From Candidatus Omnitrophota bacterium (lineage in GTDB: Bacteria > Omnitrophota > Gorgyraeia > JAHJTE01), in the NCBI GenBank assembly GCA_020058285.1, contig JAGVEL010000039.1, positions 1 to 52,808 on the forward strand: a DNA stretch of 52,808 nucleotides. Direction: 5' to 3'. A model generated the notes under the pieces. The model was not told where the DNA came from and searched no databases. It saw only the letters and a program-made list of their open reading frames with translations. Positions 3,311 to 47,603 of the stretch are shown here, piece after piece. A program made the position numbers and the translations under genes. Positions within the stretch are counted from its first letter, which is position 1. The number at the start of each line of letters is the position of its first letter.

Positions 3311-3880
3311 ATGGTTAAGCCATCCAAAAAAAAAGTAATATTCCTGGATCGAGATGGAGTAATAAATAAATTTCCCGGCAGGTATAAATATGTTACAAGC
3401 CTAAAAGCGTTTAAGTTAATACCCAGCTCGTTAGTTGCTATAAAGAAGTTAACCGAAGCCGGGTTTGTTATTTTTATTATTTCAAACCAAGCAGGAGTTG
3501 CGAAGAAATTATATTCAAAGGCTACCCTTGATAACATAACGCGTAAGATGCTTATTAATATTAATAAAACCGGGGGAAGGATAAAAAAAGTTTTATACTG
3601 CACACATCTAAAAGAGGAGAATTGCTCGTGCCGTAAACCAAAAACAGGGCTTATTGAAAAAGCTTTTAATAGTTTTCAGGCTCGGATTGACCGTAGAAAT
3701 TCTTATTTAATCGGTGATGATGTTGACCATGATATAAAGTTGGGCAAAATTGTAAAACTTAGAACCGTTTTGGTCCTAAGTGGCCGAGAAAAGTTAAACG
3801 AACGAGAAAGTTGGAACCAACAGCCTGATTATATATTTAAAAATTTACTTCAAGCAGCGGATTTTATAATCAGCTCTTAA
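3311..3880 (+). CDS. gmhB: HAD phosphatase, D,D-heptose 1,7-bisphosphate phosphatase-like (GmhB)
   Basis: This is a 189-residue HAD protein with motif I DRDGVIN (nucleophile and acid Asp), motif II SNQAG, a lysine in CRKPKTG and motif IV GDDVDHD. A C-x-H-x5-C-x-C arrangement (YCTHLKEENCSC) matches the zinc site that marks GmhB-type enzymes, which remove the 7-phosphate during ADP-heptose synthesis. The window also starts with a heptosyltransferase-like gene, which fits. A histidinol-phosphate phosphatase role (HisB N-terminal type) is a real alternative, because the his operon downstream has no phosphatase. There is an 11-base gap after the epimerase and a 1-base gap before the next gene. Confidence 0.78.
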   Translation: MVKPSKKKVIFLDRDGVINKFPGRYKYVTSLKAFKLIPSSLVAIKKLTEAGFVIFIISNQAGVAKKLYSKATLDNITRKMLININKTGGRIKKVLYCTHLKEENCSCRKPKTGLIEKAFNSFQARIDRRNSYLIGDDVDHDIKLGKIVKLRTVLVLSGREKLNERESWNQQPDYIFKNLLQAADFIISS

Positions 3881-3881
3881 C

Positions 3882-4982
3882 ATGAAAGTTTTAATTGTTT
3901 ACGCTTCTGCTGGAGCAGGCCATCGCCGGGCAGCAGAGGCAATATATGAAAATTTGGATGATTCCTTAAGACAACATACCCGCCTCGTAGATATCCTAGA
4001 TTTTACGCCTCCTCTTTTTAAATTTATCTACGCCCGAGGTTACCGATTTTTATTTTCTCACCTTGCTTTTATCTGGTCTTTTTTTTATTGGCTTACCTCA
4101 TTAAAATTCCTTTTTCCTCTGTTTAACTCCTTGGAGGGGTTGATAAATTTATGCTGTGCTCATCGCTTTTCCAGGTTTATTGCAAATGAGAGTCCTGCAG
4201 TAATTCTGTCTACACATTTTATGCCTAATGAAATTTTGTCCCGCCTAAAAAGAAACGGGCTAATTTCTTCATATATAATTTCAGTGATTACTGACTATGC
4301 AATTCACCCCTTTTGGATATCAACGGGAGTGGATAGGTATATTGTTGCGCTTGATTTTCTAAAACCGGTTTTAGTTAAAAAAGGCGTAAATGAAAACAAG
4401 ATTGATGCATTTGGCATTCCTGTAGCCAAATATTTTTATGATTTAAAGCCGCGCGAGCAGGCAGCTAAGGAAATCGGCGTAAACGCGAATAAATTTAGCG
4501 TTCTGTTAGTTACTGGAGAAATAGGGTTTAATATCTTGGGCCAGATTACCGAAGACTTGAAACGAGATGTCCAAACATTTGTTATCTGCGGCAGAAATAA
4601 AAGAATGTTTGAAAAACTTAAGCGCCTTAATAGCGAGAATATTTTTGCCTTTTCCTTGGTGCAAAACATGTATGATTTTTTGGCCTGTAGCGATATTATT
4701 ATTACCAAGGCTGGCGGTTTGACTATTTCAGAATCTTTAGTTGCAAATGTGCCGATGTGTTTTATCTGTAAGATAAGCGGCCAGGAAGAAGAAAATATAA
4801 AGGTATTCACTAAACTCGGCTGTGCAATATACGATAAACAAGTCCAAAAAATTGTTGACTGGGTATTAGAAACTAAGAATAATCCGGATAAAATTTTATT
4901 AATTAAAAAGAATATCGAGATGATAGCAAAGCCCAATGCAGCCAAGGATATAATCGCACTTATTAAAACTTATGTCAGATAA
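3882..4982 (+). CDS. MGDG synthase/UgtP-like glycosyltransferase (GT28 family)
   Basis: This 366-residue protein begins VLIVYASAGAGHRRAAEAI, the MGDG-synthase N-terminal motif that binds the lipid acceptor side in plant MGDG synthases and Bacillus UgtP. A long hydrophobic stretch (about residues 47-85) suggests peripheral membrane binding. The C-terminal half has ITKAGGLTISESLV, the donor-binding loop of GT-B enzymes in the MurG/GT28 group. It would transfer a hexose to diacylglycerol or another lipid. The acceptor and donor are not determinable here. It overlaps priA by 11 bases, so the polysaccharide genes and priA-fmt are probably read through together. Confidence 0.83.
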   Translation: MKVLIVYASAGAGHRRAAEAIYENLDDSLRQHTRLVDILDFTPPLFKFIYARGYRFLFSHLAFIWSFFYWLTSLKFLFPLFNSLEGLINLCCAHRFSRFIANESPAVILSTHFMPNEILSRLKRNGLISSYIISVITDYAIHPFWISTGVDRYIVALDFLKPVLVKKGVNENKIDAFGIPVAKYFYDLKPREQAAKEIGVNANKFSVLLVTGEIGFNILGQITEDLKRDVQTFVICGRNKRMFEKLKRLNSENIFAFSLVQNMYDFLACSDIIITKAGGLTISESLVANVPMCFICKISGQEEENIKVFTKLGCAIYDKQVQKIVDWVLETKNNPDKILLIKKNIEMIAKPNAAKDIIALIKTYVR

Positions 4983-6867
4983 AATAGCTCAGATTGCCTT
5001 AGGGTTACCAATACCCAACTTTTTTGATTATTCTGTTCCAGGGATAATGCGCGCAAACATCGATATAGGCTGTCGTGTAAGGATAAGTTTTAATAGGCGC
5101 AGTATGGTTGGCTATGTTGTTAATTTTTCAGCAAAATCAAAATTTTCTCCCAAAGGCACCAATAAACTTAAACCCATACTTAAGCTTATTGATTCAAAGC
5201 CAATAATTTCTAAGGATACAATTGTTTTTCTTTCTAGTTTAGCAAATTATTATTGTGCTTCGCTTGGCGAGATGATTGAGGCAGCTTTGCCTGCGTTGTT
5301 ACGCGAAGGAAACCTTCCTTGCGCTTTAGAGCAAAGGGATGGTAGTTCTAAAGTAGAGCATCAGAGCGACGATGAGATATTTTTGCCCTATGTTTTTCGC
5401 GTTACAGATGAGTCAAAAAAGATTGAATTTTTTAAACAAAAAATCCGCCAAACACTGGAGAAAAAAAGACAGGTTATTTTACTTGTACCCGACACTAGTC
5501 TTGTAGAGTTTTGGCATGAGCGCCTGAAAGAAGAATTTAAAGATTCTCTAATTGTAACTATGCACAGCCGGCTTACTAAAAACCAAGCTTGCTTTAGTTG
5601 GTGCACTATAAAGTTTAAACATCCGGACATTGTTATTGGTTCAAGGTCAGCTATTTTTTCACCAATAGATAATATTGGCTTAATTATCCTGGACAGCGAA
5701 GATAATTTTGTTTATAAGCAGGAAACCCGCCCCTTTTACAATGCCCGCGATGTGGCAATAATGCTTGCCAAGTTGAAAAAATCCACTCTAATTCTATCCA
5801 GCGTTTCGCCAAGCCTTGAGGTTTTTTCTGAAACATTAAAAAACAATTTTAAAATTGTTTCTGAAGATTTACAATCAGTTGATTCACCAATAGTTAAAAT
5901 TATTGATTTAAAACGCCAGCTTAAGTTTAAAAAGGCTAATATTATTTCCCTGGCGCTTTTAGAGCGCCTGCGCCTGCATTTAGAACAAAAGAAAAAAGTC
6001 CTATTATTTTTGAACCGTAAAGGCTTTGCCACTTATGCGCGTTGCCGTCATTGCGCGTATCAGTTAAAGTGCGAACGTTGCAGTTCCAACCTAATTTATT
6101 ATTATCAGCAAAAAATTTTCAGCTGCCCGCATTGCAATTTTAAGCTTACTAATATTGACAAATGCCCGAAATGCGCCCTTGACCTGATTAATTTTGGGGG
6201 CGTTGGCGTTGAACGCTTGGAGAGCGAGGCACATAGGTTATTTCCTGGTTCAAAGATTACCCGGCTTGATTCACTCAATAATCCAAATGATATTGCTTCT
6301 TCAGATATCATTATCAGTACGCAATTAGGTTTAAAAGGCTTGATCAATCAGAGAATAGACTTATGCGCTATTGTTTCAATAGATAGCATCCTTAATTTAG
6401 CCCAGCTGCGGTCTTGCGAAGAGTCATTTCGCATTCTTATGTCCCTGCACAGGTTAGTCAAAGAGGAGCTGATTATCCAAACATACCATCCTGAGCACAG
6501 GGTATTCCAAAATATAATAAATGCAGATTATGTTTCTTTTGCAAAACAAGAGCTCAAAGACAGGCGTATTTTAAAATTACCTCCCTATAAACACTTAATC
6601 TCGATAAATTTAAGAAGCCCTATTCAGGAGAAATTGGCGACTTGTGCCCAGGCGCTATTTTTAATTTTGGCCAAAGAAGTTAAAAAAATAGGAGATGAAA
6701 TTTTTCAGCCGGTTCAGGATGTACCCTATAAATTGCGCTCAAAATTTCGCTTGTTTATTTTGATAAAGACAGTTAAAGTAGAAGAGACAAATAAGTTAAT
6801 AATCAAGACTTTATCTAAATTGAGATCTAAACAGTCTGTAATCCTAAGTGTAAACGTTGACCCGTAA
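4972..6867 (+). CDS. priA: Primosomal protein N' (PriA), ATPase motifs lost
   Basis: This 631-residue protein is recognisable as PriA by its N-terminal DNA 3'-end-binding domain (FDYSVP... GCRVRISF... VGYVV), eight zinc-ligand cysteines as four CxxC pairs (CRHC, CERC, CPHC, CPKC), FLNRKGFA and the C-terminal domain. The helicase motifs are broken. Where PriA has GVTGSGKT, residues 143-150 read RVTDESKK. DEEH is DSED (241-244). SATPS is SVSPS (277-281). The GRAGR arginine-finger region is replaced by a short stretch reading LHRLVKEE. The segment before Walker A is also shortened. Mycobacterial PriA is likewise annotated as lacking helicase motifs. I infer a structural, non-ATPase replication-restart loader. 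The start ATG overlaps the upstream gene. Confidence 0.88.
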   Translation: MSDKIAQIALGLPIPNFFDYSVPGIMRANIDIGCRVRISFNRRSMVGYVVNFSAKSKFSPKGTNKLKPILKLIDSKPIISKDTIVFLSSLANYYCASLGEMIEAALPALLREGNLPCALEQRDGSSKVEHQSDDEIFLPYVFRVTDESKKIEFFKQKIRQTLEKKRQVILLVPDTSLVEFWHERLKEEFKDSLIVTMHSRLTKNQACFSWCTIKFKHPDIVIGSRSAIFSPIDNIGLIILDSEDNFVYKQETRPFYNARDVAIMLAKLKKSTLILSSVSPSLEVFSETLKNNFKIVSEDLQSVDSPIVKIIDLKRQLKFKKANIISLALLERLRLHLEQKKKVLLFLNRKGFATYARCRHCAYQLKCERCSSNLIYYYQQKIFSCPHCNFKLTNIDKCPKCALDLINFGGVGVERLESEAHRLFPGSKITRLDSLNNPNDIASSDIIISTQLGLKGLINQRIDLCAIVSIDSILNLAQLRSCEESFRILMSLHRLVKEELIIQTYHPEHRVFQNIINADYVSFAKQELKDRRILKLPPYKHLISINLRSPIQEKLATCAQALFLILAKEVKKIGDEIFQPVQDVPYKLRSKFRLFILIKTVKVEETNKLIIKTLSKLRSKQSVILSVNVDP

Positions 6868-7814
6868 TGGATAGAGATTTGCGAATTATATTTTTTGGAA
6901 GCCCAGGTTTTGCTGCAAGAGTCTTAAGAACTCTGATCGAAGCAAAATACCCCATACTTTGCGTTGTTACTCAAGCAGATAGACCATCCGGTCGGCACTT
7001 AAAGCTTCACGAAACTGAAGTTAAGACGTTAGCTAAACAGAATGCTTTGGAAGTGCTCTGTCCCCAAAATTTATCTAACGATAATTTTTTAGATAAGATT
7101 TCGAAATTAAGTCCAGATTTATTTGTTGTTGTTTCTTACGGCTTGATGCTGCCAAAGACTATTCTCAAAATCCCGAAACTTTTTGCCTTAAATATTCATG
7201 CTTCACTTTTACCTGAATATCGCGGCGCAGCGCCAATTCATTGGCAGATCATAAACGGAGAAACTACATCCGGAATAAGTTTAATCCGGATGAATGAATC
7301 AATGGATCAAGGCGATATTATTAGCCAGGCGAGCATACCAATAGAACCGAGCGAAACAGCGTTATCTTTAGAAAATAAGCTTTCAAAACTTGCTTGCAGT
7401 CAAATCCTAAAGACGCTTAAAATTATTGAATCCGAAAAGGTTAGTTTTACTAAGCAAGAAAATTCTAAAGCAAGTTTTGCCCCTAAGTTACGAAAAGTAG
7501 ATGGCCTGATTGATTGGAGTTGTGAGGCGAGCGTAATTAATAATCAGATAAGGGGATGTATTTCCTGGCCAGTTGCCTTTACATTTTTCCGGCAAAAAAG
7601 AGTTAAAATCTTTTCTGCTCAGGTTGTAAGTGAATTCCAAGAATTTGATAAGCCGGGAGAGATTATAAGTTTGGTAGATAAATATATTATTGTCGCCACA
7701 GGAAAACTTGGCCTTAAGATTACCGAGCTACAGATGGAAAATTCTAAGCGAGTTTCCAGTGCGGAATTTATTTCCGGCACAAGGATAAAAGTCGGCGAAA
7801 TTTTTGGCAGATAA
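6867..7814 (+). CDS. fmt: Methionyl-tRNA formyltransferase
   Basis: This 315-residue enzyme formylates initiator Met-tRNA using 10-formyl-tetrahydrofolate. It has IIFFGSPGFAARVL at the N-terminus, the catalytic NIHASLLPEYRGAAPIHW (Asn and His of the formyl-transfer site), the MDQGDI aspartate and the C-terminal OB-like domain (KVDGLIDW... IRGCISWPVAF). Length is normal. The ATG shares one base with the priA stop. priA-fmt linkage is common in bacteria, often with def between them; def is absent here. It is the last gene before a strong promoter. Confidence 0.96.
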   Translation: MDRDLRIIFFGSPGFAARVLRTLIEAKYPILCVVTQADRPSGRHLKLHETEVKTLAKQNALEVLCPQNLSNDNFLDKISKLSPDLFVVVSYGLMLPKTILKIPKLFALNIHASLLPEYRGAAPIHWQIINGETTSGISLIRMNESMDQGDIISQASIPIEPSETALSLENKLSKLACSQILKTLKIIESEKVSFTKQENSKASFAPKLRKVDGLIDWSCEASVINNQIRGCISWPVAFTFFRQKRVKIFSAQVVSEFQEFDKPGEIISLVDKYIIVATGKLGLKITELQMENSKRVSSAEFISGTRIKVGEIFGR

Positions 7815-45600: not shown

Positions 45601-45647
45601 TTTCCCTGGAGTTTTTTAATCATCTTTTGGAGGAGCAGTATAAGATT

Positions 45648-47603
45648 ATGTTTAAGCATTTTTTACTGCGCATTAACGAGAGAACACTTAAGCAGACTGT
45701 TTTGGATAAATTAGTCGAACTTAATTATTCTTATCAGCCTAAGGTTAGCGAGCAAGGCGATTTTACCCACCGCGGTTCCATAATTGATATATTCCCCGTT
45801 GCATTTAACTGGCCGATACGCCTGGAGTTCAATATCAACCAGGTTGAATCAATTAAAAGTTTTGACCCGCATTCGCAAAAAACACTCTGGGGCAATAATA
45901 AAGCAATAATTCTTCCTTTTAAGCGTAAGGTAAGCATTCACCCTGATAAGCTAAAGCTTGATGAGGCAAGAAAAGCACATATCAAGCTAACTGACAATAA
46001 AGATATCCGGCTGGATGATTTTCTTAATTTAGAGTTTGGCGACTATGTTGTGCATGAAGAACATGGAATTGGCAAATTTGTTGGAATAAAAAAAATTAAA
46101 TTAAAAGATAAGCTAACTGATCACTTGATAATTCGTTATCTAGGCGGCGATTCTTTATATGTTCCGCTTAATGAAATCAATCTTGTATCGCGCTATATGG
46201 CTTTTGAGGGATTGCGGCCAAAGATGTCGCGCCTGGGAAGTTCAGAGTGGCAGAGGATTAAAGATAGAGTAAGAAGAGCAGTAAGAGTGGTAGCTTTGGA
46301 TTTATTACAAACCCAGGCTGCGCGTAGCTCTCTAAGCGGTTTTAAATTTTCAGCTGATACTGATTGGCAGCGGGATTTTGAGGCAACATTTCCCTATGAA
46401 GAAACGCCGGATCAGAAGAAGTCCTGGATCGAAGTAAAAAAAGATATGGAATCTGACCAGCCTATGGATAGGCTTCTTTGCGGGGATGTTGGTTACGGCA
46501 AAACTGAAGTGGCAATGCGCGCTGCGTTTAAGGCAGTGATGGATAACAAACAGGTTGCGATATTAGTACCTACGACCATTTTAGCTGTCCAGCACTACTT
46601 TAATTTTAGCCAGAGAGTTTCAAGCTTTCCGGTAAACGTGGCAATGCTTTCGCGTTTTAATTCTAAAGGCGAAAATAAAAATATCGTAGAGGCTACAAAA
46701 AAAGGCGCGATTGATATATTAATTGGAACGCACCGGCTCTTAGGAAATGACGTGCAATTTAAGGATTTAGGCCTGATTATTATTGATGAGGAGCAGCGTT
46801 TCGGCGTTAGGGCAAAGGAAAAATTGAAAAAGCTTCGCTTGCTAGCTGATATATTAACTCTAACAGCAACGCCTATTCCGCGTACATTGTATATGTCCCT
46901 CACCGGGATTAAGGATATTTCGGTTATTGATACGCCGCCTAAAAATAGGTTAGCTGTAGAGACTATAGTTAGCGAATATGATGAGCACCTTGCAGTTCAG
47001 GCAGTAGAACAAGAGGTTAAGCGGGGAGGCCAGGTATATTTTGTCCATAATCGCATTGAGGATATAGACAAAGTTGCCTTGCGATTAAAGAAGGATTTGG
47101 ATGAAAGAATTAATATTGCAATTGCGCATGGCAGAATGCACTCCAATGATTTAGAGAAAGTAACTCTATCTTTTCTCAAGCGCAAGATTGACTGTTTGGT
47201 AACGACAACGATTATTGAATCAGGCATTGATATTCCTAATGCCAATACGTTAATTGTTGACCGGGCAGAACATTTTGGCCTCTCGGATTTGCACCAGTTG
47301 CGCGGAAGAGTTGGAAGATTCAACCGCCAGGCTTACGCATATCTGTTTATTTCAAAAGAGGCTGTTTTGAACCCGGATGCAAAAAAGCGGCTGAAGGCAA
47401 TAGAGGAATTTTCGCAATTAGGTTCAGGCTTTCAGATTGCTATGCAGGATTTAGAAATCAGGGGAGCGGGAAATCTACTCGGAACAGAACAGCATGGGTA
47501 TATTATGGTGGTTGGTTTTGATTTATATAGCCGGCTTTTGCGACAGGCTGTAGATGGGTTGCATTCTTTAAGAAAGGAGAAAGTACATCATGCATCAAAT
47601 TAA
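45648..47603 (+). CDS. mfd: Short Mfd-like transcription-repair translocase
   Basis: This 651-residue protein is about 500 residues shorter than normal Mfd. It starts with a remnant of the UvrB-like region (QGDFTHRGSIIDIFP; then FDPHSQKTL), goes straight to the RNA-polymerase-interacting CarD-like domain (GDYVVHEEHGIGKFVGI, about 130-190), and then has complete translocase domains: GDVGYGKTEVAMRAA, DEEQRFGVRAKEK, TATPIPRTLYMS, TTIIESGIDIPNANT and QLRGRVGR. It stops after DLYSRLLRQAV, so the C-terminal autoinhibitory domain is absent. secDF precedes it directly, so the N-terminus is not on a separate gene nearby. I prefer ATG 45648 (GGAGGAG 12 bases upstream) over TTG 45627. Confidence 0.88.
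   Translation: MFKHFLLRINERTLKQTVLDKLVELNYSYQPKVSEQGDFTHRGSIIDIFPVAFNWPIRLEFNINQVESIKSFDPHSQKTLWGNNKAIILPFKRKVSIHPDKLKLDEARKAHIKLTDNKDIRLDDFLNLEFGDYVVHEEHGIGKFVGIKKIKLKDKLTDHLIIRYLGGDSLYVPLNEINLVSRYMAFEGLRPKMSRLGSSEWQRIKDRVRRAVRVVALDLLQTQAARSSLSGFKFSADTDWQRDFEATFPYEETPDQKKSWIEVKKDMESDQPMDRLLCGDVGYGKTEVAMRAAFKAVMDNKQVAILVPTTILAVQHYFNFSQRVSSFPVNVAMLSRFNSKGENKNIVEATKKGAIDILIGTHRLLGNDVQFKDLGLIIIDEEQRFGVRAKEKLKKLRLLADILTLTATPIPRTLYMSLTGIKDISVIDTPPKNRLAVETIVSEYDEHLAVQAVEQEVKRGGQVYFVHNRIEDIDKVALRLKKDLDERINIAIAHGRMHSNDLEKVTLSFLKRKIDCLVTTTIIESGIDIPNANTLIVDRAEHFGLSDLHQLRGRVGRFNRQAYAYLFISKEAVLNPDAKKRLKAIEEFSQLGSGFQIAMQDLEIRGAGNLLGTEQHGYIMVVGFDLYSRLLRQAVDGLHSLRKEKVHHASN

Follow-up and report, generated by a model that had tools for sequence, protein, structure and literature searches.

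Predicted loss of the helicase motor from PriA of a Candidatus Omnitrophota bacterium and the distribution of the motorless state in its class

The stretch of DNA analysed here (the window; 52,808 nt) belongs to a metagenome-assembled genome (MAG) of Candidatus Omnitrophota with a size of 1.24 Mb and a completeness of 92.8% (G000). It carries a priA gene at positions 4972–6867, whose reading frame is open for 631 codons, as the initial annotation had reported. This gene and all other features described below lie on the forward strand. Upstream of priA are genes for a HAD phosphatase of the GmhB/histidinol-phosphatase type (3311–3880) and a MurG/diglucosyl-diacylglycerol-synthase-like glycosyltransferase (3882–4982), both recognised as conserved neighbours by synteny. 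The conserved downstream neighbour is fmt, encoding methionyl-tRNA formyltransferase (6867–7814; TIGR00460). The locus order HAD phosphatase, glycosyltransferase, (uracil-DNA glycosylase), priA, (def), fmt is common to families in which PriA retains its motor motifs (intact) and families in which it does not (motorless). The uracil-DNA glycosylase gene was found directly upstream of priA in most intact families and in the motorless families f4, f10, f13, f20, f22, f24, and f33 (loci L035–L094); it is not at that place in the window's family (f1) or in f3, f11, f12, f26, f28, f32, f35, f38, and f39.

The window protein was identified as a PriA by a full-length match to TIGR00595 (about 366 bits, cut-off 230), and PriA structures were its best fold matches. 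The 3'-DNA-binding domain (3'BD) is retained at 4990–5292 (residues 7–107; PF17764, 82.5 bits, and conserved columns), and so is the C-terminal domain (CTD) at 6583–6864 (residues 538–631; PF18074, 40.2 bits), both scoring above their cut-offs. The cysteine-rich zinc region in lobe 2 (6043–6174) has the pattern CxxC x5 CxxC x14 CxxC x9 CxxC, so that all eight of the cysteines noted earlier are indeed present. Together with the position beside fmt, these domains and cysteines are those of a PriA orthologue. The initial annotation had also described the N-terminal DNA-binding domain as intact, which holds for the 3'BD but not for the winged helix of a PriA helicase: the segment between the 3'BD and lobe 1 measures 31 aa, compared to about 51 aa in intact relatives, where it is thus already short, and 117 aa in Escherichia coli.

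The motor itself was assessed in an alignment with E. coli PriA and 57 intact sequences. At the Walker A position (5401–5427), VTDESKKIE replaces GVTGSGKTE; at the Walker B position (5692–5703), DSED replaces DEEH, with the second glutamate retained (E243, codon 5698–5700, aligned with E. coli E322); at the motif III position (5800–5814), SVSPS replaces SATPS; and at the motif VI position (6442–6465), SLHRLVKE replaces QxxGRAGR. The motif V region (6316–6345) is degenerate. Compared with intact PriA, lobe 2 is shortened by 16 aa. The window PriA therefore has none of the motifs expected of a working superfamily 2 motor (Walker A, DEEH/Q, SAT, QxxGRxGR), and only six of its 19 catalytic residues match E. 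coli PriA, versus at least 17 in intact relatives. These substitutions bear out the earlier observation that all ATPase motifs are lost and the earlier view of a non-motor PriA. A TIGR00595 search of the window genome (92.8% complete) found no second PriA, its weaker matches including Mfd and RecG. The Mfd in the window (45627–47603) is short (658 aa); its UvrB-interaction, RID, and translocase domains were found, but the part before model position 277 and the TRCF domain at the C-terminus were not, and Mfd-type open reading frames of about 620–690 aa recur in the class. Judged by its alignment and domain content, the window gene encodes a single-copy PriA orthologue, the sole PriA of its genome, that has lost its ATPase/helicase motor. 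This loss is not an assembly artefact, since the same state was found in independent MAGs of many families.

The distribution of that state was examined in 99 genomes of the same class, drawn from families and orders other than the window's. A scan of genome contigs with the window PriA returned no match, whereas the nearest matches to a sister-family PriA carry the name Candidatus Omnitrophota; the class most likely corresponds to Koll11 of GTDB, whose description and subsequent division are given in PMC10066038. PriA scores across the 99 genomes were bimodal, and an alignment shows that the two groups correspond to presence and absence of the motor. In the alignment, 57 intact sequences kept GxTxSGKTE and DEEH or DEEQ, as well as GRxGR wherever that region was covered, while 34 sequences from 17 families had lost the motor motifs. 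The state was never mixed within a family. Columns conserved at 90% or more in intact PriA were retained in the motorless set in 70 of 155 cases; the eight cysteines were all at 100%, and the Walker A, motif V, and motif VI columns were scrambled. The glutamate aligned with E322 is invariant among motorless PriAs, although the remainder of its motif varies freely. The PriA of one f24 genome (G023, L065) reads GPEGSGKME and YEEGD and has already lost motif VI, with an otherwise high PriA score of 544 bits; it possibly represents an early stage of motor loss.

A wider scan of 270 genomes that were at least 90% complete yielded the same two score groups. Families f42, f45, f50, and f51 and further members of f3 were motorless by alignment, and f43, f44, f46, f47, f49, f52, and f53 are known from low PriA scores only, outside the alignment. 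Outside the class, the five PriAs that were aligned from elsewhere in the phylum were intact, and the motorless state is therefore considered derived. None of the approximately 270 genomes listed carried both an intact and a motorless PriA. A profile built from motorless PriAs recovered a highly diverged PriA of 586–588 aa with eight cysteines in three f5 genomes (G004, G039, and G064), so the apparent absence of PriA from f5 was wrong for at least these three.

Some related lineages have gone further. The complete cysteine region is gone as a unit from ten f38 genomes (L291–L300), from G228 (f38; L216), and from G132 (f42; L215), leaving motorless PriAs of 554–599 aa. Cysteines in complete motorless genes are all-or-none, i.e., eight or zero. 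With the motorless-PriA profile, PriA was undetected in G015 (f16), G051 (f21), G161, G174, G184 (f3), G264, and G272 (f58), all of them fairly complete genomes; PriA may have disappeared altogether from these lineages, or the MAGs may be missing the stretch that carries it. As these lineages are without the zinc region or without a detectable PriA, the scaffold role proposed below may be becoming dispensable in them.

We estimated selection as omega by the simple Nei–Gojobori method, from independent unsaturated pairs of motorless genes related to the window's (17 pairs) and of intact genes (only five pairs); the window gene, having no close relative, stands outside the estimate. Whole-gene omega was 0.215 (95% CI 0.166–0.271) for motorless and 0.075 (0.070–0.079) for intact PriA, which indicates weaker constraint on the motorless genes. 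By region, the motorless and intact values were 0.234 and 0.054 for lobe 1, 0.199 and 0.040 for lobe 2, 0.137 and 0.043 for the zinc region, 0.202 and 0.125 for the 3'BD (with overlapping confidence limits), and 0.206 and 0.123 for the CTD. Relaxation relative to intact PriA was thus 4–5 fold in the helicase lobes and about 1.6 fold in the 3'BD and CTD. The zinc region was under the tightest constraint of all parts in f3/g72, the genus with the best sampling (omega 0.068). A second omega estimate was in agreement, and values for motorless genes spanned about 0.15–0.3. Identity across families, expressed relative to the intact value, was 52–57% in the lobes, 90% in the 3'BD, and about 80% in the zinc region and CTD. 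The related motorless PriAs are maintained by purifying selection, as had been proposed initially for the window gene, and the extra relaxation is mostly in the motor lobes. Degenerate ATPase motifs combined with selective maintenance characterise a PriA pseudohelicase of the Deinococcus type; both were found here, the latter in related genes.

These measurements bear on the scenario, raised at the outset, of a decaying copy, a gene on its way to becoming a pseudogene while another locus supplies an intact PriA. In its favour, no motor motif survives, and at 93% completeness a second copy could escape detection. However, a single PriA was found in the window genome, no listed genome combines both kinds, nearly every motorless relative has an uninterrupted frame, omega is about 0.2, the eight cysteines are invariant, and the locus is that of an intact gene. 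We consider decay extremely unlikely.

The number of origins was estimated from species and gene trees. On the ribosomal-protein tree (3,234 columns), the motorless families are scattered and seven state changes are required. Forcing these families into one clade was rejected on the ribosomal-protein data by the AU test (p = 0.0345 under LG+G4 and p = 0.024 under a mixture model with 30 taxa), so a single origin on this tree is weakly rejected. In the mixture-model tree, the strongly supported branches alone require two changes. In the full-length PriA gene tree, the motorless genes come together with few exceptions, and a single clade was not rejected (p = 0.71); in the gene tree without lobes, f10, f22, and f24 fall among the intact genes, and one clade was again not rejected (p = 0.146). 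The gene trees would fit a history in which one ancient conversion was followed by spread through replacement at the priA locus, or in which an ancestral pair was sorted by loss. However, these trees are biased by features common to the motorless genes, namely lobes under relaxed constraint and long branches, and the full-length tree was for this reason set aside for counting origins. The placement of the three families once the lobes are removed argues against one conversion as well, as do the ribosomal-protein rejections, the conserved locus order, and the lack of a listed genome with both PriA kinds. We regard this history as doubtful, although it has a real share of the probability. Two or more origins of motorless PriA are likely, and about seven is our best estimate. 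As to the fuller course of events, namely that the motor was discarded independently about seven times in one class, that a fork-binding scaffold was selected each time, and that the zinc region and perhaps PriA itself were then lost in sublineages, we judge the chances to be evenly balanced.

Precedents from other bacteria help to interpret what a motorless PriA could do. Primosomes are still assembled by E. coli PriA when its ATP site is inactivated, and in vitro DnaB loading is done with this form of the protein (PMC4504706, PMC10175261). When E. coli PriA sits on a fork, its zinc region swings to form a single-stranded DNA pore and a docking platform (PMC10175261). The PriA of Deinococcus radiodurans has no ATPase activity but binds fork DNA and DnaB (PMC4504706). 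We propose, with a probability of roughly three in four, that the window PriA is a non-motor scaffold for fork recognition and DnaB loading, the loading role being inferred. The 3'-end pocket would recognise an abandoned fork together with the lobes, which would be reduced to a structural, DNA-contacting frame. The fork-bound protein would present its zinc and C-terminal surfaces, and DnaB would be recruited, probably with the DciA loader that is common in the class, with PriA itself not unwinding the lagging strand. Remodelling, where a fork needs it, might fall to a different enzyme, e.g., RecG, or such forks might arrive at PriA already single-stranded.

An AlphaFold model of the window PriA (pLDDT 77.7) matches E. 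coli PriA along its length. Its TM-scores were 0.82 to the fork-bound form (8fak), 0.72 to the ADP form (4nl4), and 0.70 to a winged-helix deletion (6dcr), and the conformation was given no weight as there was no control model of an intact relative. Persistence of the predicted overall fold, together with the invariance of the E322-aligned glutamate, would suit a cryptic ATPase that binds nucleotide through non-canonical residues and still switches conformation. We find this very unlikely, given that neither the P-loop glycine and threonine nor motif III nor the motif VI arginines survive and that K230R alone abolishes the ATPase of E. coli PriA (PMC4504706).

Somewhat less improbable, but still unlikely, is a repurposed protein that binds forked DNA or 3' ends and no longer loads DnaB, e.g., a fork-protection or regulatory factor. 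The strong remodelling of the lobes agrees with repurposing, and the zinc platform, where PriB docks in E. coli (PMC10175261), is entirely lost in part of f38 and in one f42 genome. Against it, nearly all motorless PriAs, the window's included, have kept the zinc region whole, and it is still constrained (omega 0.137); the pseudohelicase PriA of Deinococcus binds DnaB, and no other restart protein was identified.

The partners that the scaffold would need were sought in the genomes. DnaB and RecG are present in the window genome, and DciA was found in 84 of the 99 class genomes. In relatives, dciA follows dnaN, and the contigs of the window genome and of G010 end just after dnaA. The apparent lack of DciA in the window genome and in f11 was therefore discarded as evidence, these contigs stopping before the usual dciA place. 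An unscored open reading frame of 89 aa lies at the usual dciA position in f5 (G004). RecG is found in nearly all genomes and so does not separate intact from motorless PriA, and a PF01695 search for DnaC/DnaI-type loaders was uninformative, returning mostly DnaA-like and transposition-type matches.

PriA helicase motifs are conserved in most bacteria, though the activity is dispensable for E. coli in the laboratory. The scaffold reading suggests that what makes PriA essential is not the unwinding of DNA but its marking of forks and its bringing in of the replication machinery. The presence of intact and motorless PriA at one locus in different families offers many natural comparisons, which could address the dispensability of the motor, the surfaces needed for loading, and takeover by another helicase. 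If repeated loss is true, it amounts to a natural, replicated dissection of the parts required for replication restart. For genome annotation, a PriA match does not imply a helicase.

The kind of protein described here is already known. A study from 2015 proved biochemically that Deinococcus–Thermus PriA is a pseudohelicase (PMC4504706). Given this precedent, and given a state that is widespread within Omnitrophota and probably arose several times there, the initial proposal of a "second lineage" of non-motor PriA does not stand. In the literature searched, we found no paper on the helicase motifs of mycobacterial PriA, which that proposal had taken as its reference, and none treating Omnitrophota and PriA together. 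Within that literature, what is new is the occurrence in Omnitrophota, its breadth, its probable recurrence, and the series leading to a zinc-less PriA.

The motorless PriA shares degenerate helicase motifs with the PriA of D. radiodurans, a protein without ATPase or unwinding activity that binds single-stranded DNA, fork DNA, and DnaB; that D. radiodurans belongs to a lineage without clear PriB or DnaT is counted as a further likeness. This likeness is drawn from the description of the D. radiodurans protein, with Deinococcus sequences outside our alignment and Omnitrophota PriA known from sequence alone. The two differ in extent: in D. radiodurans, the Walker A lysine is changed to arginine in a poor motif, whereas in the window PriA nothing is left of the P-loop, motif III, or motif VI. 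Moreover, the Omnitrophota state recurs among families with otherwise intact PriA, and some relatives are without the zinc region. Like E. coli PriA K230R/K230A, the window PriA would, as proposed here, serve as a scaffold that binds forks and supports loading without hydrolysing ATP. The E. coli protein, however, is a laboratory point mutant working with PriB, DnaT, and DnaC, whereas the Omnitrophota loss is natural and extensive, with DciA as the usual loader. A further comparison is with PriA from those Omnitrophota sister families that have kept it intact (e.g., G042 and G018); this PriA has the same locus, 3'BD, zinc region, and C-terminal domain but, unlike the window PriA, possesses all helicase motifs, in lobes that are about 4–5 times more constrained.
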